Shown here one piece after another: positions 23,798-34,677 of a stretch of 64,000 nt of DNA; within the stretch, counting starts at the first letter, position 1; the number at the start of each line of letters is the position of its first letter. The notes below the pieces were generated by a model. The model did not search any database. It worked only from the letters and a program-made list of their open reading frames with translations, and was not told the DNA's origin. The stretch is from NCBI GenBank assembly GCA_027488335.1, contig JAIYBU010000039.1:1-64000 (forward strand), read 5' to 3'. Source of the stretch: Cytophagaceae bacterium. GTDB lineage: Bacteria; Bacteroidota; Bacteroidia; Cytophagales; Spirosomataceae. Position numbers and translations under genes: made by a program.

Positions 23798-24705
23798 CTT
23801 GTCTAACATTAATTAAAGATTTACTTTTCTTACAAAACATATAGCCATCGCTATAATATTAAGACATAGCCAATTATTAGCTTTAGTTTCATACCTCACT
23901 AATAATGCTTTAAAAGCGTCTATCCAAGCAAAGGCTCTCTCAATAACTGTTCTGTTTTTATACAATAATTCGTCAAAATACTCAAATCGCTCATTGATAT
24001 TTCCATTTCTTACGTTAAAAGCAATGTTAGGATGAATTTTATGTTGGCTACATATTTGCCTGCATTCATTTGAGTCGAAACCTGCATCAGCATTTAAAAA
24101 TAAGCCATCGACAGAAATTTCAGACATCTCAAGCCAAGAGATTAATTGCTCAAAATGAACTTTAAAATTTGATAAATCATGGTTATTCCCACAGATTGGT
24201 TGAGAAATAGCTAAAAGAGTACCTTGACTATCACACAAATATAGAAAATTGGTTGTTTCCTCAGATTTTCTATACTGAAATCCAACAGCTTGCCCCCCTC
24301 TATTTGCTCTTGTATGTGAACCGTCCAATTGAACACATGATAAATCTAAATGTTTCTTATATTCTTTAAGTAAATTTAACCACATGGTTTCCCAAGACCC
24401 ATCAGTACTCCATTTATTGAAATGATAAAAAACACTTGTATAGCTATAGTCAGTGTTAAAATATCGCTCCATTGGCAATTCTCGCCATTGGCAACCTGTC
24501 TTTAGTCGGTAAAAAATTGATAATACTATGTTTATTCGCTTTTCTTCACTAAGAGATTCTCCTCGTTTACCTTTGCTTAAATAGGGTAGAATAAATTTTT
24601 TAATCTTATCTTTGCTTAAGATGCTCATGGTAAGGTTCTTTTTAGTTCGCAAAGCAAAATTAACCTTTAAATGAGCTTCTTTTATTTTATAATTACTTTA
24701 GACAG
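23798..24705 (-). mobile_element. IS5-family insertion sequence (approximate boundaries)
   Basis: One transposase ORF flanked by imperfect terminal repeats: left gaacTtgtctaa (~23798) and right, read on the reverse strand, gaacCtgtctaa (~24705). Target duplication not resolved. Confidence 0.7.
23813..24652 (-). CDS. IS5-family DDE transposase
   Basis: DUF4096-like N-term (KRINIVLSIFYRLKTGCQWRELP), DDE blocks VQLDGSHT, LFLNADAGFDS, KNRTVIERAFAWIDAFKALLVRYE. Start probably at internal MSILSKD. Confidence 0.93.
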   Translation of the reverse strand: MRTKKNLTMSILSKDKIKKFILPYLSKGKRGESLSEEKRINIVLSIFYRLKTGCQWRELPMERYFNTDYSYTSVFYHFNKWSTDGSWETMWLNLLKEYKKHLDLSCVQLDGSHTRANRGGQAVGFQYRKSEETTNFLYLCDSQGTLLAISQPICGNNHDLSNFKVHFEQLISWLEMSEISVDGLFLNADAGFDSNECRQICSQHKIHPNIAFNVRNGNINERFEYFDELLYKNRTVIERAFAWIDAFKALLVRYETKANNWLCLNIIAMAICFVRKVNL

Positions 24706-25890: not shown

Positions 25891-27012
25891 ATGACAGACA
25901 AACATAAGTTAGATATTGATGTCTTAATTGAACGCATCGCCTTGTGCCAGTCACGAGGTGATGCGTTTTTTCCTGATGGCATTTTTCCTTCGTATCGGCA
26001 TAATAAATATCTGTTTTATCGTCGTCCCGACACCAATATTTTTTACACGGCCACTATTGCTTTTATTCTGAATCAGGTAAAAGATAAAGTTTCGACAAAA
26101 TCGCAGCAGATTATTGATGAAATTACTGCGAAAGCAATTAAAAACTACCCTGATTTTCAGAATAAAGATGGGCTGAAAACCTACAATTTTTGGAAGACGA
26201 AGCCTTCAAAACATTTCCCGAATGGCAGAATCTTCCAACATCTCGACCATTTTAGAATCCCCGATGATATAGATGATACGGCTTTGATTTATCTGACTTT
26301 ACCACACTCTAAAGAAGATGTGTTGTGGTTGAAGGAAAAAGTGAAGCTGCATTGTTCCCCTTTAGGAGTTAAGGGTGGCGGCGTTTACTCTACATGGTTC
26401 GGAAAAAATATGCCTATTGAGCATGATGTGTGTGCGTTGTGCAATTTGATGTATTTGTTTGAAAAATACCAATTACCGCATAATGAATACGATGAAGCCG
26501 TTTTTGAATTTTTGAAAAAAGTTATTTTAGGAGAAAAATATATTACCAATGCCTTTGAAGTGGCACATAATTATGCCACAACTCCGCTAATTATTTACCA
26601 TTATGCTCGACTTTTGAGTGATTTTGAAATACCACAATTAGAAGTCTGCCGAGAGAAGTTGATTCATAACATTAAACAGATTTTAAACAATGAGTTGAAT
26701 AAGATGAGCCGCGTGATTTTAGAAACGTCTTTGATGAAGTTAGATAAGAATAATCTTTCAAAACTCAGCACTCAAAACCGCACGGCTGACCATTCAGCAC
26801 TCAGTACTCCTCCGTTCACCTATTTTATCGCAGGACTTTTAAGTTCTTATCGAAACCCAATGTTATATTTCTTTGCTCCATTTAAAATTACGCAAATGGA
26901 GTGGGAATGTGAAGCTCATGAGTTAGCACTGCTTGTGGAGCGAACTGTAGCGACGCTAACCTCCGAGTTCGCAGGTATAAAAGCGAACTCGGAAGTTCGC
27001 CCCACAGATTAG
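25891..27012 (+). CDS. Conserved hypothetical protein, alpha-helical/terpenoid-cyclase-toroid-like
   Basis: Intact ORF with helical segments and motif [21 protein letters not shown]; family not identified. Confidence 0.6.
26934..27007. repeat. Nested palindromic (REP/MITE-like) element at 3' end of the hypothetical CDS
   Basis: TCCGAGTTCGC (26962-26972) / GCGAACTCGGA (26983-26993) nested inside TGTGGAGCGAACT / AGTTCGCCCCACA (one mismatch), plus internal TAGCG-A-CGCTA. Confidence 0.6.
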
Positions 27013-27776
27013 ATTCTCATCGGAATGCCTTTTTCTTTTAGGTAATTTTTTAATTCTGGAATACCGATTTCTTTGAAGTGAAAAATACTTGCGGCTAAAC
27101 CTGCATCGGCTTTCCCTGTTGTGAAAACATCATAGAAATGCTCCATCGAACCAGCACCACCCGACGCAATGATTGGGATATTTGAATTTTCGGAGATTTC
27201 GGCCGTTAATTCAATGGCAAAACCTGCTTTTGTGCCATCTGCATCCATCGAAGTCAATAAAATTTCACCTGCACCACGGTCTTCTACTTCTTTTGCCCAA
27301 GCAATTGTTCTTAATTCGGTTGGTTTTCGGCCTCCATGTGTATGTACGATATGCTCGTAGCCATTGGTTTGTTCAATATAACGAGTATCAATGGCCACAA
27401 CAATACATTGTGAGCCAAATTCCAGAGCTAATTCATTGATTAATTGAGGATTACGCACCGCCGATGAGTTGATAGAAACTTTATCGGCTCCTGCGTTTAA
27501 AAGCTTAGAAACATCAGCAACTGAACCGATTCCACCGCCTACACAAAAGGGAATATTGATAGTATGGGCAACTCTACGCACTAAATCGAGGAGGGTTTTA
27601 CGTTCTTCGACGGTGGCAGTAATATCAAGAAACACTAATTCGTCAGCTCCTTGACGAGCGTATTCGGCACCGAGTTCTACGGGGTCGCCTGCATCACGAA
27701 GGTTTACGAAATTAGTACCTTTGACGGTGCGACCATCTTTTATATCTAAACAAGGTATGATTCTTTTTGTAAGCAT
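27009..27776 (-). CDS. hisF: Imidazole glycerol phosphate synthase cyclase subunit
   Basis: [23 protein letters not shown]..., [33 protein letters not shown]. Confidence 0.98.
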
Positions 27777-27800
27777 TTTCTTTTACAATTATCAAGCGAG

Positions 27801-28244
27801 CTACTGCTCATTATAAATATTTGGTCGAGCAATTTGCATCATTGAATCGGGGTTATCCAGAGGAGTAAAGCCGAATTGTGCATAAAGTCCGTGGGCATCA
27901 CGAGTAGCGAGCATCCAACGACGAAGCCCTTGTAAATCAGGCTGTTGTGTAATACATTCCATCAACCATTTTGAGATACCTTTACCTCTTTCGCTCTCTA
28001 AAACAAAAACATCGGCTAAGTAAGCAAAAGTAGCATAATCAGAAATGATGCGGGCATAGCCTACCTGCTTTCCAGCTTTATAAATACCAAAAGTCGTGGA
28101 ATGTTCGGCGGCACGCTTTACGATTTCCATCGGAATATTAGGCGACCAATAGCTTGTCGATAAAAAGCCATGAATTACATCGAATTGTAATTTGGTTTTA
28201 TCGGTGCTGATGGTGTATTCGTCTTTTTGGTATTCGTAAATCAT
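27801..28244 (-). CDS. GNAT-family N-acetyltransferase
   Basis: VGYARIISDYATFAYLADVFVLESERGKGISKWLMECI (acetyl-CoA binding motif) and GLYAQFGFTPL. Confidence 0.88.
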   Translation of the reverse strand: MIYEYQKDEYTISTDKTKLQFDVIHGFLSTSYWSPNIPMEIVKRAAEHSTTFGIYKAGKQVGYARIISDYATFAYLADVFVLESERGKGISKWLMECITQQPDLQGLRRWMLATRDAHGLYAQFGFTPLDNPDSMMQIARPNIYNEQ

Positions 28245-28314
28245 TATGGAACGCTGATTTTTATTACTACTTCAACAATGACAAGATTGGACGCAACTCA
28301 GATACAAGCCTGTT

Positions 28315-29040
28315 CTACAAGAATCTCTTTTCTATCTCCTTCAACGTAACACGACCTTCATAAATAGCTTTACCTACGATTACGCCAAAGATATTGAGTT
28401 CGGCCAAATCTTCGAGGTCTTGCATTGAACTCACGCCACCACTCGCAATTACTTGTAAATCAGGAAATTGCCCTTGCATTTTTTTGTATAAATCAACCGA
28501 AGGGCCTTGCAAAAGTCCATCTTTGGCTACATCGGTGCTGATGGTATATTTTACGCCTTTGGCAATCCATTCTCCGATAAAATCATACACCCAAACGCCC
28601 GAATCTTCTTCCCAACCACTTACCGCAATTTTTTCGTTGCGAGCATCAGCTCCTAAAATGATTGATTCGCTCCCAAAACGTTTGAGCCATTCTTCAAATA
28701 ATACTGGATTTTTGATGGCGATGCTTCCACCCGTAACTTGCTTTGCTCCGCAATCAAAAGCCAAGCGAATATCGTCATCCGATTGCACACCTCCGCCAAA
28801 ATCAATGTGAAGATTGGTTGTTGAAGCAATGGTTTCGAGAACTTTGGCGTTGGTGATTTTTTTATTTTTCGCTCCATCTAAATCAACCAAATGAAGGCGT
28901 TTGATGCCCGCATCTTCAAACATTTTGGCTACTTCGACTGGATTTTCGTTGTAAGTTTTTTTCTGAGAATAATCACCTTGTGTAAGCCTTACGCATTTAC
29001 CGTCGATGATGTCAATGGCTGGAATGATTTGAAAATTCAT
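28315..29040 (-). CDS. hisA: 1-(5-phosphoribosyl)-5-[(5-phosphoribosylamino)methylideneamino]imidazole-4-carboxamide isomerase
   Basis: MNFQIIPAIDIIDGKCVRLTQGDYSQKKTY..., IDFGGGVQSDDDI, VIASGGVSSMQDL. The track start at 29061 is upstream; MNFQ at 29040 is more likely. Confidence 0.97.
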   Translation of the reverse strand: MNFQIIPAIDIIDGKCVRLTQGDYSQKKTYNENPVEVAKMFEDAGIKRLHLVDLDGAKNKKITNAKVLETIASTTNLHIDFGGGVQSDDDIRLAFDCGAKQVTGGSIAIKNPVLFEEWLKRFGSESIILGADARNEKIAVSGWEEDSGVWVYDFIGEWIAKGVKYTISTDVAKDGLLQGPSVDLYKKMQGQFPDLQVIASGGVSSMQDLEDLAELNIFGVIVGKAIYEGRVTLKEIEKRFL

Positions 29041-29789
29041 GAGATTACGTCTAATGCACAAAATTTTAATTGTTGTTCTAATTCTTTAAATTCATCATCC
29101 CATAAATCGTTTTTAATCAATAGGTTTTTGATGATTTCATAATCATTATCGTGAAGAATATAAGATGCAACTACTGAACTATATTCTGCTTTTGGGGTGC
29201 CTTCGTGGAATAAATTCCTTAATTTTCTTATAATTTTATTCTTTTTGACGGTTGTCTTATTTGTTGAATCATCATATTCTTCTAAATCTTTGCTTATTTC
29301 TTCTAAGCGTTCAACAGCATAGTTCCCGATTTCAAATCGTTTGTTTACCCACAAATTAGTATCGTTCAAATTTAAAACTTCTATCGTTGTGTTACCAATT
29401 TCATCTTTACCTTTGAAACGATACGCCCTGAATGCCAAATGCTTCTTAGGGTCATCGAAGCGTGGGTTGATTATGGGTTCGATTTTGGTATCATGGTCTA
29501 ACTTTGCTTTATTTACAGCAGAAGAAATAGGTAGAAGGTTTTCCCATTTTAGAACTTCATCAGGATAAATAGATTTTGGATAAAAATGCTCTACTTCAAG
29601 ATATTTGCCTTCTTCAACTAACTTACACTCCGAAAAACAGCATTTTCCCTCTGACATAGCCAAAAGTTGTTTACTGATATATTCTTTTTTCCAAACAGCT
29701 TTATCGGTTAACTTAAATTCTTCCGTCAACTGTTCAATCAATTCGTCTGTAAGTTCAGTAGGAGCGGGTAAGTCTTTAATTTTTATCAT
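29037..29789 (-). CDS. ptuB: HNH-type nuclease, PtuB-like (Septu-type / TIGR02646-like)
   Basis: GKCCFSECKLVEEGKYLEVEHFYPKSIYPDEVLKWENLLPISSAVNKAKLDHDT (HNH with EHFYPKS core); partner of upstream AAA ATPase with 4-nt ATGA overlap. Confidence 0.75.
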   Translation of the reverse strand: MIKIKDLPAPTELTDELIEQLTEEFKLTDKAVWKKEYISKQLLAMSEGKCCFSECKLVEEGKYLEVEHFYPKSIYPDEVLKWENLLPISSAVNKAKLDHDTKIEPIINPRFDDPKKHLAFRAYRFKGKDEIGNTTIEVLNLNDTNLWVNKRFEIGNYAVERLEEISKDLEEYDDSTNKTTVKKNKIIRKLRNLFHEGTPKAEYSSVVASYILHDNDYEIIKNLLIKNDLWDDEFKELEQQLKFCALDVIS

Positions 29790-31024
29790 GCAAAAGTCGA
29801 AGCAGGTAAAGGTGCAATTGAGCCAAGTTGAAGTTTTAGTAATTTTCGCTGACTGCTTGTTGGATGTAAGATTTTATTCAACTCATCAAAAGCGGACTTT
29901 GCTTTTTTATAATTTTCTTCATCTATTCCTGTCTCAAATTGTTTCAGGAAACTTAAATAAGTATCCGAAAGCGTTTTTTCTCCTAAACCCATCAAATCTT
30001 GAAGAATTTCCTCAACTGTCCAGCCTTGAAAAGTGCCAAATTCTTGCCTGATGTGGGTGTTTTCTTTGTCTTTTTCTAAGATAATTAAGTTTACATCTTC
30101 GGCAGACTGGACAATGAGCGGGCTATGAGCCGTTACGATAAACTGTACATTTGGAAAAACCCCACTTAGATATTTAATGATTTTTCGTTGCCAATCTGGG
30201 TGCAAATGCAAGTCTATTTCATCAACTAAACAAATTGCAGCACCGTGTAGTGGGTTTTCTAATTTATGGAAACGCTCAAACATTTTTTTTGCTAAATCAA
30301 CCACCCAAACCATTGTAGATTGATAACCATATCCGAGTTCACGTAAACGAACTTTTCCATAATCAGTATGAAAAAGAGCATAATTTTGAACTGTGTTTTC
30401 TTTTGTCTCGGAAATAAGCTCTATTTCATGAACATCGGGTAGCAAATCACTCGTTAGTATTTCTTTAACTTTGCTAAGCAACTTTTGAGAGTTTTTATCT
30501 CCTTTAGAAGCAACCAAATCTAACTGAAATAACCATTCTTCTGGATTTGTGTATCTTACATCATCTTGGAAAATGCCGTCTAAGTATTCTTTTTCTATTT
30601 CAACATTTGAAAGATTTGTTTCAGAGATTTTCCGAGAAATGCCGTAACCAAAAAACAATAAGTTGTTTATAAAATAATCATCACCATAAGGTGTTGCAGC
30701 AGAAAGGTACATTTTATTGTTTTCACCTCTGATACTCCAAACTACGCCAGATATAAATCTATTGAAAGAAGAGTTTATCAGAAAACTACTTTTTAATTCT
30801 TTGAAAATTGTTCCTTTAGGATAGTAGTACTCGTTTCCTTTTCTTAAATCTAAAGATGCTAATATTTTTAAAATTGTAGTTTTTCCAGTATTATTATTTC
30901 CTAAAATAACATTCCATTGTTGAGGTTCTCCATTAGGTTTGGCAAAAGAAATTTTGTGTGTTCCTTTAAAACACTTTACGTCAGTAATTTTAACTTCTTC
31001 AAAATAAACCCCGTCTTTTGTCAT
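29786..31024 (-). CDS. ptuA: AAA-family ATPase, PtuA-like (Septu-type)
   Basis: Walker A ILGNNNTGKTTILKILASL, Walker B AAICLVDEIDLHLHPDWQ, VQFIVTAHSPLIVQSAEDVNLIIL; C-terminal helical region; paired with HNH gene. Confidence 0.78.
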   Translation of the reverse strand: MTKDGVYFEEVKITDVKCFKGTHKISFAKPNGEPQQWNVILGNNNTGKTTILKILASLDLRKGNEYYYPKGTIFKELKSSFLINSSFNRFISGVVWSIRGENNKMYLSAATPYGDDYFINNLLFFGYGISRKISETNLSNVEIEKEYLDGIFQDDVRYTNPEEWLFQLDLVASKGDKNSQKLLSKVKEILTSDLLPDVHEIELISETKENTVQNYALFHTDYGKVRLRELGYGYQSTMVWVVDLAKKMFERFHKLENPLHGAAICLVDEIDLHLHPDWQRKIIKYLSGVFPNVQFIVTAHSPLIVQSAEDVNLIILEKDKENTHIRQEFGTFQGWTVEEILQDLMGLGEKTLSDTYLSFLKQFETGIDEENYKKAKSAFDELNKILHPTSSQRKLLKLQLGSIAPLPASTFA

Positions 31025-31060
31025 TTTTGAGTATGATTATTGGGTAAAGATAACTAAAAA

Positions 31061-31651
31061 TCAAATCTCCAAGAAATTCTTAAAAATCTGTTCGCCTACG
31101 TCACCGCTGATTTCGGAGTGAAACTGTGCTGCAAAGAAATTGTCTCGCTGCAACATCGCCGAATATTCCAAAATATAATCCGTTTTGGCTACCGTATAAT
31201 CGCAAAGTGGAGCATAATATCCGTGATTATAATAGACATATTCGCTTTCTCGCAAACCTTTCAAAAGCGGATTTGGCTGGTCGGCTGTAATATTATTCCA
31301 ACCTGTTTGTGGAACTTTAAAGCCTTTTACTCTCGGAAATTTTAAGATTGGAATATCAAAAACTCCCAAACATTCGGTATTATTTTCTTCGGATGATTGG
31401 CAAAGAAGCTGCATTCCTACGCACGTTCCGAGAAATGGTTGTTTAAGCGTTGGAATTACTTTATCCAAACCGTTTTCTCGTAAACTTTTCATGGCAGTTG
31501 AAGCCTCGCCTACACCTGGGAAAATGATTCGTTCGGCAGAGCGAATCACCTCTGCATTATCAGAAAGCTCATAGCTTGCACCGATACGCTCAAGGGCATA
31601 CATAACCGATTGTACATTGCCTGCGTTATATTTGATAATTACTACTTTCAA
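31061..31651 (-). CDS. hisH: Imidazole glycerol phosphate synthase glutaminase subunit
   Basis: MKVVIIKYNAGNVQSVMYALERIGA..., PFLGTCVGMQLLCQ (catalytic Cys), FFAAQFHSEISGDVGEQIFKNFL. Confidence 0.97.
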   Translation of the reverse strand: MKVVIIKYNAGNVQSVMYALERIGASYELSDNAEVIRSAERIIFPGVGEASTAMKSLRENGLDKVIPTLKQPFLGTCVGMQLLCQSSEENNTECLGVFDIPILKFPRVKGFKVPQTGWNNITADQPNPLLKGLRESEYVYYNHGYYAPLCDYTVAKTDYILEYSAMLQRDNFFAAQFHSEISGDVGEQIFKNFLEI

Positions 31652-31670
31652 AATCGAATGAGTGAATGAG

Positions 31671-31869
31671 TGAATGATAGAACGAGTGCCGCAGTGGAGC
31701 TGAATATTAAGTCAACTTCACACTTTCTTAAGATTATACAAATCTAAACTTATCGGTAGATAAAATGCTATTTTTATTAAAAAAGCCATACTTTATCTTT
31801 ATTTTGTTTAATATATTGTTGTTTTTTCAAAAATATTCAGCTCCACTACGGTACTCGTTCTATCATTCA
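31671..31869. repeat. 199-bp segment bounded by 38-bp inverted arms (MITE-like or inverted duplication)
   Basis: 31671-31708 TGAATGATAGAACGAGTGCCGCAGTGGAGCTGAATATT versus the reverse complement of 31832-31869, TGAATGATAGAACGAGTACCGTAGTGGAGCTGAATATT: 36/38 identical. Confidence 0.85.
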
Positions 31870-31923
31870 TTGTATCTCATTTGCTCATTGGTTATCTTGC
31901 AACGAAATTTCACCACCCAAAAC

Positions 31924-33285
31924 ATGAATTGGCAAACTCTTTTCTCTAATAAACGACTCGGTGCCGAACACCGCAACGCCCACGAAAATTTCCGCACTGA
32001 CTATATGCGAGATTACGACCGATTGATTTTTTCGTCGCAGTTTCGTCGTTTGCAAAACAAGACCCAAGTGTTTCCATTGCCTGGAGCTGTTTTTGTACAT
32101 AATCGCCTGACTCACAGTTTAGAAGTGGCATCGGTTGGACGCTCGCTCGGGAAAGCAATTGGCGAAAAAATCGTTGAAAAATACGAAAGTGAACTGAACC
32201 AAGAGGCTATAGAGTTTTATAAATTTGAACTTTCGGCGGTGGTCATGACGGCCTGTATTGCTCACGATATTGGTAATCCGCCTTTCGGACATTCGGGCGA
32301 AGAAGCCATTCGTACTTATTTTAGAGAATTGGAAGGTGAAAAACTCAAATTTCTGACTGAAAACCTAACTGAAAACCAATTCAACGATTTTAAATGGTTT
32401 GAAGGCAATGCCAATGCGTTTCGAATTCTGACAACAATTTTTAATCAAAGTAATCTTAATCTTACTTACGCAACTTTGGCTTCTATCATTAAATATCCTG
32501 CCGATTCGACGAGTGGATTTAAGAAGAAAAGTTTTATTTCGGCCAAAAAATCGGGCTTTTTTGATGCCGAAAGTGAGTTTTATCAACGAATTGCAACCGA
32601 ACTGAATATCAATGCTTTGAATGACGAAAAAACAGTTTTTGCTCGCCATCCGTTTGTGTTTTTGGTAGAAGCAGCCGATGATATTTGTTACCGAATCATC
32701 GACCTCGAAGATGCTCACCGACTCAATATTATTTCGATTCAAGAAGCACGAGATTTGCTCGAACCTTTCTTTGAAGATAGAGCAGGAAAAAGGCCGATTA
32801 AAGAATTGGTTGATGATGTGGAAGATGATAAGCAGAAACTTTCTTTTTTGCGAGCTATGCTCATCGGAAAATTAGTAGCAAAATGCACCGAAATTTTCTT
32901 TGAATACGAAGTCCAATTACTCGATGGCTCACTCAATAAGCCTTTGATTGACCTTTTAGATGAAAAAACTACTTCTTTAATCAAAAAAATAGATGAAATT
33001 TCGGTCAAGAAGATTTACAACGACAAGTCGGTGATTGAAATCGAAATTGCAGGTTATCATATTATTGGTGGATTATTGAAGGAATTTGTCTCGGCCGTTT
33101 TACAGCCCGACACGGCCAAATCACGAAAATTATTGCAGTTGATTCCGAGCCAATACGGTATTACGAAGGGCGGCGATGTTTACCAGAATATTCTTGCGGT
33201 AGTTGATTTTATATCGGGCATGACCGATTTGTTTGCCATTGACCTTTATCGAAAAATTACAGGGATTCAGATTCCGCAGTTGTAG
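31924..33285 (+). CDS. dgt: Deoxyguanosinetriphosphate triphosphohydrolase (HD domain)
   Basis: MNWQTLFSNKRLGAEHRN...DYDRLIFSSQFRRLQNKTQVFPLPGAVFVHNRLTHSLEVASVGRSLG, ACIAHDIGNPPFGHSGEEAI. The track start at 31765 would make the inverted arm coding; Met at 31924 is preferred. Confidence 0.93.
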   Translation: MNWQTLFSNKRLGAEHRNAHENFRTDYMRDYDRLIFSSQFRRLQNKTQVFPLPGAVFVHNRLTHSLEVASVGRSLGKAIGEKIVEKYESELNQEAIEFYKFELSAVVMTACIAHDIGNPPFGHSGEEAIRTYFRELEGEKLKFLTENLTENQFNDFKWFEGNANAFRILTTIFNQSNLNLTYATLASIIKYPADSTSGFKKKSFISAKKSGFFDAESEFYQRIATELNINALNDEKTVFARHPFVFLVEAADDICYRIIDLEDAHRLNIISIQEARDLLEPFFEDRAGKRPIKELVDDVEDDKQKLSFLRAMLIGKLVAKCTEIFFEYEVQLLDGSLNKPLIDLLDEKTTSLIKKIDEISVKKIYNDKSVIEIEIAGYHIIGGLLKEFVSAVLQPDTAKSRKLLQLIPSQYGITKGGDVYQNILAVVDFISGMTDLFAIDLYRKITGIQIPQL

Positions 33286-33426
33286 AATAGTCCACGGTCT
33301 TCTGTCGATAGTCCGGCTATTTGCGATGAACTAAGTGTGCCATACTTACTTCGCAATTTATAAAATTAAGGAACTTCAAAAGCGAAAAAAACTGTTGTTT
33401 TTATATCAAACAAGAAAATTACCCGA

Positions 33427-34677
33427 ATGAAGCAAACCAAAGACCCTTACGCAGCCCTCCGTTTTCCCGAATTTAGGTATTTTATTTCGGCTCAATTTCT
33501 GTTTACGGTTGCGGTTTTGGTACAAGAAGTTGTCATCAGTTTTTATTTGTACGAAATCACCCACGACCCACTTTCATTGGGTTTAATTGGGCTTTTTGAG
33601 GCAATTCCATACATTTCTTTGGCACTTTTTGGGGGATATTTTGCCGACCGAGGCGATAAAAAACGCATTATTCAGATTTGTTATGGTGTTATTGTGCTTT
33701 GTTCTTTCTTGCTCCTTTGGGTTACTTATCCAACGGCTAATCATTCGTTTGATATTGCTCAAATAAAATTTGTTGTCTATCTGACTGTCTTCATATTAGG
33801 CATTGCCCGTGGGTTTTATGGCCCATCTTGGTCATCGCTCAAACCTTTTTTGGTTCCCGCCGAACATTATCCAAATTCTGCTTCGTGGAGCAGCCAATTT
33901 TGGCAATCGGGTATGATTTTAGGGCCAGCATCAGCGGGTTTTTTATATAGTTGGTTAGGCTTAACTAACACACTTATTTTGGTAATCGTTTTGTTTGCTA
34001 TCGCTTTTGTTTTAGTAAGTCTGATTTCTAAAAAGCCTATTCAGCAGTCGGCTACTCATCAAAATGTATTTCAGAGTTTGAAAGAAGGAATTGATTTTGT
34101 ACGTAAAAATCGAATTTTATTTTACGCCATTTTACTTGATATGTTTTCGGTACTTTTTGGTGGTGTAATCGCTATTTTACCAGTTTTTGCCAAAGATGTG
34201 CTACACGTTGGTGCTGAAGGGTTAGGCATTTTGCGAGCCGCCCCAGGTATTGGTGCCGTACTGACAATGCTCGGAACTGCCTATTTTCCGCCAACTCGCC
34301 AAGCATGGCGAAATATGCTTATCGGTGTGGCTGGCTTCGGCGTAGCAACGATAGTTTTTGCACTTTCTACCAACTTTTGGTTGTCGGCAGGGGCTTTATT
34401 CCTAACTGGGGCTTTCGATAGTATCAGCGTAATTGTGCGTCAGACAATCTTGCAGGTACTACCACCCGACGAAATGCGTGGGCGTGTGAGTGGCGTAAAC
34501 GGTATTTTTGTGAGTTGTTCCAACGAACTCGGTGCTTTTGAATCGGGTTTGGCTGCCAAGTTTTTTGGAGCGGTTCCTTCGGTGATTTTCGGGGGGGTAA
34601 TGACCTTAGTCTTTGCAACAATTATCTTCTTCCGTTCGGGCGACCTTTTTGATGTTAAATTGGAGAAGAAAGCATAG
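33427..34677 (+). CDS. MFS transporter
   Basis: Multiple TM segments, MFS loop FGGYFADRGDKKRIIQICY, LPPDEMRGRVSGVNGIFVSCSNELGAFESG. Confidence 0.92.
   Translation: MKQTKDPYAALRFPEFRYFISAQFLFTVAVLVQEVVISFYLYEITHDPLSLGLIGLFEAIPYISLALFGGYFADRGDKKRIIQICYGVIVLCSFLLLWVTYPTANHSFDIAQIKFVVYLTVFILGIARGFYGPSWSSLKPFLVPAEHYPNSASWSSQFWQSGMILGPASAGFLYSWLGLTNTLILVIVLFAIAFVLVSLISKKPIQQSATHQNVFQSLKEGIDFVRKNRILFYAILLDMFSVLFGGVIAILPVFAKDVLHVGAEGLGILRAAPGIGAVLTMLGTAYFPPTRQAWRNMLIGVAGFGVATIVFALSTNFWLSAGALFLTGAFDSISVIVRQTILQVLPPDEMRGRVSGVNGIFVSCSNELGAFESGLAAKFFGAVPSVIFGGVMTLVFATIIFFRSGDLFDVKLEKKA

Follow-up and report, generated by a model that had tools for sequence, protein, structure and literature searches.

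A predicted Septu type I cassette between hisH and hisA in two Emticicia species

Defence genes are usually sought in islands, prophages and hotspots, and a predicted anti-phage gene pair among histidine biosynthesis genes raises the question of how it came to be there, how it is expressed, and whether the gene that follows depends on it. Here we report the analysis of such a locus in a window of 64,000 nucleotides, which is part of an Emticicia genome (Bacteroidota). Re-examination of the sequence confirmed every coordinate of the gene order and overlaps given by the first-pass annotation. The pair does lie between hisH and hisA; the unit described there as a his operon is, however, only a his sub-operon (hisH-hisA-GNAT-hisF), since it is headed by hisH. 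Its features, in the direction of transcription, are as follows.

31061..31651, minus strand: hisH, imidazole glycerol phosphate synthase glutaminase subunit, with a TTG start (TIGR01855, 185 bits vs cut-off 105.4)
31045..31052, minus strand: TATCTTTA, promoter -7-like element, 20 nt before the ptuA start (consensus TAnnTTTG)
29786..31024, minus strand: ptuA, predicted Septu type I AAA/ABC-type ATPase, 412 aa (PDLC00304 PtuA1, 373.7 bits)
29786..29789, minus strand: ATGA, overlap of the ptuA stop and ptuB start, read from the sequence (-4 nt, as also in E. agri and Runella)
29037..29789, minus strand: ptuB, predicted Septu type I HNH nuclease, 250 aa (PDLC00342 PtuB1, 294.7 bits)
29037..29040, minus strand: ATGA, overlap of the ptuB stop and hisA start, read from the sequence (common to E. 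agri)
28315..29040, minus strand: hisA, with its ATG at 29040 (TIGR00007, 253 bits vs cut-off 229)
27801..28244, minus strand: GNAT acetyltransferase, between hisA and hisF (PF13508)
27009..27776, minus strand: hisF (TIGR00735, 375 bits vs cut-off 294.6)

All three his genes score above the curated NCBIfam cut-offs, and the gap between hisH and ptuA is 36 nt. An assembly artefact was ruled out, as gene order and overlap are identical in the isolate E. agri 17J42-9 (NZ_SEWF01000023.1). Upstream of hisH lies a divergent ORF that is dGTPase-like by eye. The GNAT gene is an old occupant of the hisA-hisF gap, present in most Emticicia and in several related genera.

Sequence and predicted folds identify the two genes as a complete Septu type I cassette, a known system, and its anti-phage activity is predicted. 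Both proteins match the PADLOC models over their full length, PtuA at model positions 8-430 of 444 and PtuB at 1-246 of 247. Among the PDB sequence matches of PtuA, the best 12 of 15 are PtuA-type chains and the other three are AriA; PtuA structures also top the Foldseek list against the PDB for its predicted fold, which has a moderate pLDDT of 76. The PtuB model (pLDDT 95) has PtuAB complexes as all of its top five Foldseek PDB matches (9u9y, 9nnb, 9vhl, 9vh1 and 8eea). These results bear out the PtuA/PtuB assignment first proposed for the pair. The motifs of PtuA are intact (Walker A ILGNNNTGKT, Walker B LVDEIDLHLHP, and TAHSP), its residues G42-T49, D268-E269 and H300 are conserved in an alignment of 23 homologues, and H68, N84 and N93 of PtuB are invariant in an alignment of 22; in Septu EcB88, the Walker A/B and HNH residues are needed (PMC13096335). 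In unrelated genomes ptuA and ptuB are kept as a pair, -14 to +12 nt apart. The model TIGR02646 (retron system putative HNH endonuclease), initially suggested for PtuB, proved inapplicable: PtuB scores 38.7 bits against a cut-off of 52.15, and the PADLOC PtuB model fits instead. An association with a retron (retron type I-A, or Septu type II) was likewise rejected, because no reverse transcriptase adjoins the pair, whose neighbours are hisH upstream and hisA downstream, an Rfam search of positions 26800-33500 gave no match, and the NCBIfam retron PtuA/PtuB equivalogs NF041760 and NF041761 stay below their cut-offs (158 vs 500 and 49 vs 150).

The junction that houses the pair was compared across 12 Emticicia genomes. 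PtuA/PtuB lie between hisH and hisA in two of them, the present genome and E. agri, and six carry another two-gene cassette there, intact or decayed, which encodes a 79-aa protein and an HNH nuclease. The clean hisH-hisA junction that the first-pass annotation had proposed looking for in sister genomes was found in the remaining four, and the pair is an insertion. The HNH protein of the alternative cassette (137 aa) resembles the PtuB models, and this cassette also has a TAnnTTTG element. Elsewhere in Emticicia the junction is thus empty or filled with a different HNH-nuclease cassette, which makes it an exchangeable slot; in other genera, four-helix 23S-IVP-like proteins are encoded in the same his gap. 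A phylum-wide search found PtuAB in only 6 of 396 genomes, too few for statistics. The system itself is already known; its exchangeable position at a core gene is unusual.

The present genome and E. agri are sisters in both the PtuA tree (98/91) and the PtuB tree (100/95), and share the same PtuB/hisA ATGA and, relative to species without the cassette, the same extra second hisA codon. The two copies therefore probably descend from one insertion, and two independent insertions are unlikely on the same grounds. A recent transfer between the two species was rejected as well, because the synonymous sites of ptuAB are as diverged between them as those of the his genes, both being near saturation; the share of identical codons is 0.54 in ptuB and 0.54 in hisA. 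The insertion would thus date from about the time at which the his genes split. Two Emticicia clades contain PtuAB, with one occurrence each, so that a single insertion requires several losses or allele replacements, or else an old transfer. The GC content is 0.32-0.33 in the cassette vs 0.40-0.42 in the his genes, and both ptuA and ptuB are under purifying selection (dN/dS of about 0.15 and 0.07, respectively).

In both Septu-bearing Emticicia hisA has lost the leader of its own that it has in species without the cassette. The last 36 nt of ptuB, which adjoin hisA, are the most conserved stretch of this gene (34 of 36 nt), with P of about 0.02 for the terminal window in what is a weak test on two sequences. 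The context of the hisA start codon (A at -3/-6) showed no clear difference between genomes with and without the cassette. It is the more likely reading that hisA now leans on ptuB; the earlier suggestion that loss of the cassette would impair hisA thus gains weight, a dependence being likely from the ATGA overlap, the lost leader and the conserved end of ptuB.

The further suggestion that expression of the pair may follow histidine demand is not supported. The -7-like element upstream of ptuA differs from the Bacteroidota -7 consensus TAnnTTTG (PMC6847099) by one base, TTTA for TTTG, throughout the present sub-clade, and is preceded at a distance of 17 nt by a TTG (31070-31072). TAnnTTTR was found 12-40 nt upstream of ptuA in 13 of 23 homologues, vs 2.0 expected and a maximum of 6 in 500 shuffles, and its spacing is 17-22 nt in 12 of those 13. 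The pair thus has its own putative promoter element, spaced from ptuA as it is in relatives that do not lie in his operons, and the Rfam search of positions 26800-33500 found no histidine leader or riboswitch.

The position before a core gene proved as unusual as the first-pass annotation had supposed, yet is not unique to his. The present genome has a second, different Septu type I pair (G000:C205) 14 nt upstream of glyS, which belongs to the PDLC00281/PDLC00351 sub-family, has an ATGA overlap and is missing from most sister species; the PtuB alleles found there vary strongly from species to species (34% for G000, the present genome, against G004). In Methylococcaceae, a PtuAB relative is inserted within the ruvX-pyrR operon, between these two genes, and in a sister genome that lost the cassette the tail of PtuB is all that is left ahead of pyrR (blastn 86%, 119 nt). 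Related cassettes occur at many unrelated places; at most of these the next gene is convergent or over 50 nt away, and only about a third of some 30 PtuAB sites have a downstream gene on the same strand at a distance of 30 nt or less. An enrichment directly upstream of core genes was sought across these sites; an excess over the genome background was not shown, and only individual cases are claimed. We tentatively raise the possibility that junctions before core genes (hisH-hisA, upstream of glyS, ruvX-pyrR) act as docking slots that swap small HNH-nuclease defence cassettes, coupling of the last gene to the core-gene start guarding against clean deletion, so that a cassette would be lost only by allele replacement or with its tail left behind.

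We consider it probable that a Septu type I cassette was inserted once into the his sub-operon with its own promoter-like element, hisA having come to rely on the end of ptuB. For the transcription, translational coupling, defence activity and target of the cassette we infer the following course. One insertion between hisH and hisA, at about the time when the two main Emticicia lineages diverged or earlier, would have brought the promoter-like element and taken away the hisA leader, so that the last codons of ptuB would serve as the translation start region of hisA. With the end of ptuB in this role, hisA, GNAT and hisF would lie on one message with the defence genes, driven by the his promoter, the cassette promoter, or both. 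The activity of PtuAB is gated by nucleotides. As in other Septu systems, PtuA ATPase subunits would assemble with PtuB and keep the nuclease inactive until infection alters the nucleotide state or provides a trigger; released PtuB would then cut nucleic acid, either DNA or tRNA, and stop the phage. PtuAB relatives defend by cleavage of tRNA-Tyr (PMC13096335; PMC11555353) or of DNA (work cited in PMC11555353).

The cassette might instead be an incidental passenger in a tolerant intergenic gap, its overlap with hisA and the his promoter being irrelevant to either side. The scatter of related cassettes, the modest and possibly background share of sites close to a downstream gene, and the GNAT and 23S-IVP-like genes that likewise sit in his gaps agree with this account; we regard it as unlikely, though by no means negligible, given that hisA lacks its own leader in both species, that the shared ATGA and extra codon persisted through near-saturated synonymous divergence, and that in another phylum the PtuB tail was retained before pyrR after loss of the cassette. 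Expression from the his promoter only, with defence tracking histidine demand, is rather improbable: ptuA follows hisH closely on the same strand and co-transcription is plausible, but against this stand the element at conserved spacing, a similar element in the alternative cassette of the slot, and the region's lack of Rfam elements, a His leader included.

A non-defence role of the ATPase-HNH pair, in metabolism or DNA repair, is very doubtful; it is suggested by the housekeeping or repair genes that often neighbour the relatives (uvrA, ruvB, glyS, pyrR), and is contradicted by the patchy presence within the genus and across the phylum, the AT-rich composition and the full-length fit to Septu models. 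Least probable is a homing-like, selfish nature of the HNH cassettes, which would enter the hisH-hisA junction by means of their own nuclease. Two different HNH-nuclease cassettes do occupy this one site, and the HNH protein of one resembles the models of the other, but the sites of PtuAB relatives are unrelated and share no evident target, and quite different genes fill the same gap in other genera.

In the present locus a Septu cassette is so tightly built into a biosynthetic operon that hisA starts inside the ptuB stop codon. If coupling to core genes stabilises defence genes, it would offer a simple, testable route by which costly systems could be maintained away from mobile islands; operon-embedded cassettes may then be under-counted by island-based searches. 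The present pair shares with Septu type I (E. coli PtuAB, PDB 8eea/8ee4/8sux; Septu EcB88) the order of an ATPase gene followed by an HNH gene, the folds, the intact catalytic motifs and the ATGA coupling; it differs from the solved proteins by low identity (about 20% in fold alignments) and by its location, as a his sub-operon surrounds it and ptuB overlaps hisA. The effectors of type I-A retrons (retron Ec78/Eco7, Ec83; Septu type II in PADLOC) have the same PtuA/PtuB folds, whereas the present pair stands without an adjoining reverse transcriptase or Rfam match and below the retron equivalog cut-offs. The glyS-side pair of the same genome is likewise type I, with an ATGA overlap and directly before a core gene, and differs in sub-family. 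Heterogeneous his operons with 'alien' genes between the his genes are described for Bacteroidota in sections of PMC8305728, where Emticicia is absent from the main text and those sections mention no defence function. Finally, the core defence hotspots cDHS1/2 of P. aeruginosa (PMC10250203) resemble the hisH-hisA slot in that defence genes are exchanged between fixed core genes; those hotspots are kilobase-scale islands between genes, whereas the present case is a two-gene insert in a biosynthetic operon that overlaps the start of the next gene.

On the minus strand the window reads hisH, ptuA, ptuB, hisA, a GNAT gene and hisF, and re-reading of the sequence bore out all coordinates given for them in the first-pass annotation. 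The his genes exceed the curated NCBIfam cut-offs, and hisH is the first gene of the unit, since the ORF before it, dGTPase-like by eye, is divergent; its start codon is apparently TTG (31651), as in E. agri 17J42-9. Both ends of ptuB overlap their neighbors:

29786-29789, minus strand, ptuA/ptuB overlap, ATGA common to both genes
29037-29040, minus strand, ptuB/hisA overlap, ATGA common to both genes

The divergent region upstream of hisH holds an inverted repeat (38-nt arms at 31671-31708 and 31832-31869, 95% complementary, 123 nt apart), which could be a regulatory structure or a small mobile element. About 2.4 kb past hisF lies an IS4/IS5-type transposase gene (DUF4096/DDE; 23813-24652), and nothing indicates that it mobilized the cassette.

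PtuA (412 aa) and PtuB (250 aa) match the PADLOC models PtuA1 (PDLC00304, 373.7 bits) and PtuB1 (PDLC00342, 294.7 bits) over almost their full length. General domain models fit less well (AAA_21 and AAA_15; HNH_4 slightly under its cut-off), and PtuB scores under the curated cut-off of TIGR02646, which had been proposed as a check. In sequence comparison with the PDB, PtuA chains rank first for PtuA (E 6e-23), and the PtuB chains matched by PtuB are no more than borderline (E 0.02). The five top fold matches of the PtuB model (pLDDT 95) all belong to PtuAB complexes, of retron Ec78 and E. coli Septu, and PtuA chains fill the top of the list for the PtuA model (pLDDT 76); because the predicted folds match PtuA/PtuB structures, the Septu identity first proposed is settled. 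Across 22-23 homologues, conservation holds for the Walker A, Walker B and TAHSP motifs of PtuA and for H68, N84 and N93 of PtuB. No reverse transcriptase adjoins the pair, and an Rfam search around it gave no match. Judged from sequence and models, the pair is, under the PADLOC definition (PMC8565338), a genuine Septu type I system and of a kind already known.

Comparison of the hisH-hisA junction in 12 Emticicia genomes (G000 to G011, the window being from G000 and E. agri, with contig NZ_SEWF01000023.1, being G010) confirmed that this housing is unusual, as PtuAB is absent from the junction in ten of them and present only in G000 and E. agri. The junction is clean (42-98 nt) in four sister genomes (G002, G006, G008, G009), and in the remaining six it carries a different cassette, in which a 79-aa protein is ATGA-joined to a following 137-aa HNH protein, preceded by a TAnnTTTG element. 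G004 has an intact copy of this cassette and G001, G003 and G011 have frameshifted ones; G005 and G007 retain a remnant (gap loci L054 of G004, L057, L062 and L063; remnants L058 and L059). The HNH protein is distantly PtuB-like (PtuB1 models, best E 3e-12), and a PADLOC search with the 79-aa protein gave no match; the two are possibly an undescribed nuclease/partner module. Copies of this HNH type with the 79-aa partner also occur elsewhere (loci L125, L126, L131, L132). In the rest of the family the junction is clean in most genomes; 23S-IVP-like (23S rRNA intervening-sequence-like) four-helix-bundle genes were seen by eye in the gap of two genomes of other genera (L077 of G019, L081 of G046). 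The junction, lying within a core operon, is probably a slot whose occupants can be exchanged.

In both the PtuA (98/91) and the PtuB (100/95) tree, G000 and E. agri group as sisters, nearest to Runella copies at other locations, and they share the ptuB/hisA ATGA overlap and an extra second hisA codon (MN/MS vs M) found in no other of the 12 Emticicia. We read their PtuAB insertion as one old event. The species tree places one copy in each of two Emticicia clades. Between the two genomes the cassette dS (1.8-2.9) resembles that of hisA and hisF (about 1.95), so the cassette would date to the lineage split or have reached both by old exchange; the share of identical codons is 0.54 in both ptuB and hisA. 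Low dN/dS (about 0.15 for ptuA and 0.07 for ptuB) indicates retention of both genes under purifying selection. The cassette is still AT-rich (GC 0.32-0.33 vs 0.40-0.42 for the his genes). Clean junctions without the extra hisA codon suggest allele replacement at the locus rather than simple deletion.

In the cassette carriers, hisA begins within the ptuB stop codon and no longer has a leader of its own. Between G000 and E. agri, no part of ptuB is better conserved than its final 36 nt (34/36 identical; 11/12 codons in the last window, terminal-window P about 0.02), modest evidence that the ptuB tail serves hisA. With the leader lost and this tail conserved, hisA likely depends on ptuB, we infer by coupling, and the suggestion that cassette loss would impair hisA is likely to hold. 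The accompanying idea, that cassette expression follows histidine demand, is unsupported. A promoter-like element, TATCTTTA, stands 20 nt ahead of the ptuA start in G000, with TATATTTA at 17 nt in E. agri and TAAGTTTA at 18-19 nt in the Runella relatives. TAnnTTTR occurs within 12-40 nt upstream of 13 of 23 ptuA homologues (expected 2.0, maximum 6 in 500 shuffles), and the Bacteroidota -7 consensus is TAnnTTTG (PMC6847099); the cassette therefore probably comes with a promoter of its own, an argument against expression merely tracking histidine demand.

Housing beside core genes recurs outside the his unit. G000 carries a further Septu pair, which belongs to a different sub-family (PDLC00281/PDLC00351), has an ATGA overlap and lies upstream of glyS, at locus L001 (G000:C205:1849-5223):

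L001:1983-3311, minus strand, PtuA-like gene
L001:1402-1986, minus strand, HNH gene, glyS 14 nt downstream

A pair precedes glyS in three of the 12 Emticicia (G000, G004, G010) and is absent from the other nine; the PtuB alleles there are just 34% alike, against 93-97% identity for glyS. In a Methylococcaceae genome, a relative of the his-operon pair lies between ruvX and pyrR in a yqgE-ruvX-pyrR-pyrB operon. The cassette is missing at 24 other pyrR loci, which come from the carrier's relatives and a Parabeggiatoa, and pyrR is next to ruvX there. In one close relative (L157 of G808) the last PtuB codons and the same spacer precede pyrR (86% over 119 nt), which we take as a fossil left by a Septu cassette that was lost; this PtuB-tail remnant lies between ruvX and pyrR, about 15-105 nt upstream of pyrR. 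Further relatives lie 4 nt upstream of panB, and 9 nt upstream of an oxidoreductase gene that rpe follows. Since many other copies are distant from the next gene, we claim no enrichment next to core genes.

In relatives, PtuA and PtuB make up a complex in which the HNH nuclease is controlled by the ATPase through nucleotide gating. In the window pair PtuA would control PtuB as in these relatives, and ptuAB would act in anti-phage defense by analogy. Septu EcB88, in which both active sites are required, and retron Eco7 cut tRNA-Tyr on infection (PMC13096335, PMC11555353), and PtuAB of E. coli ATCC25922 is reported, as cited in PMC11555353, to act on DNA. As far as sequence and fold tell, the window pair is biochemically an ordinary member of Septu, and its novelty is the housing only.
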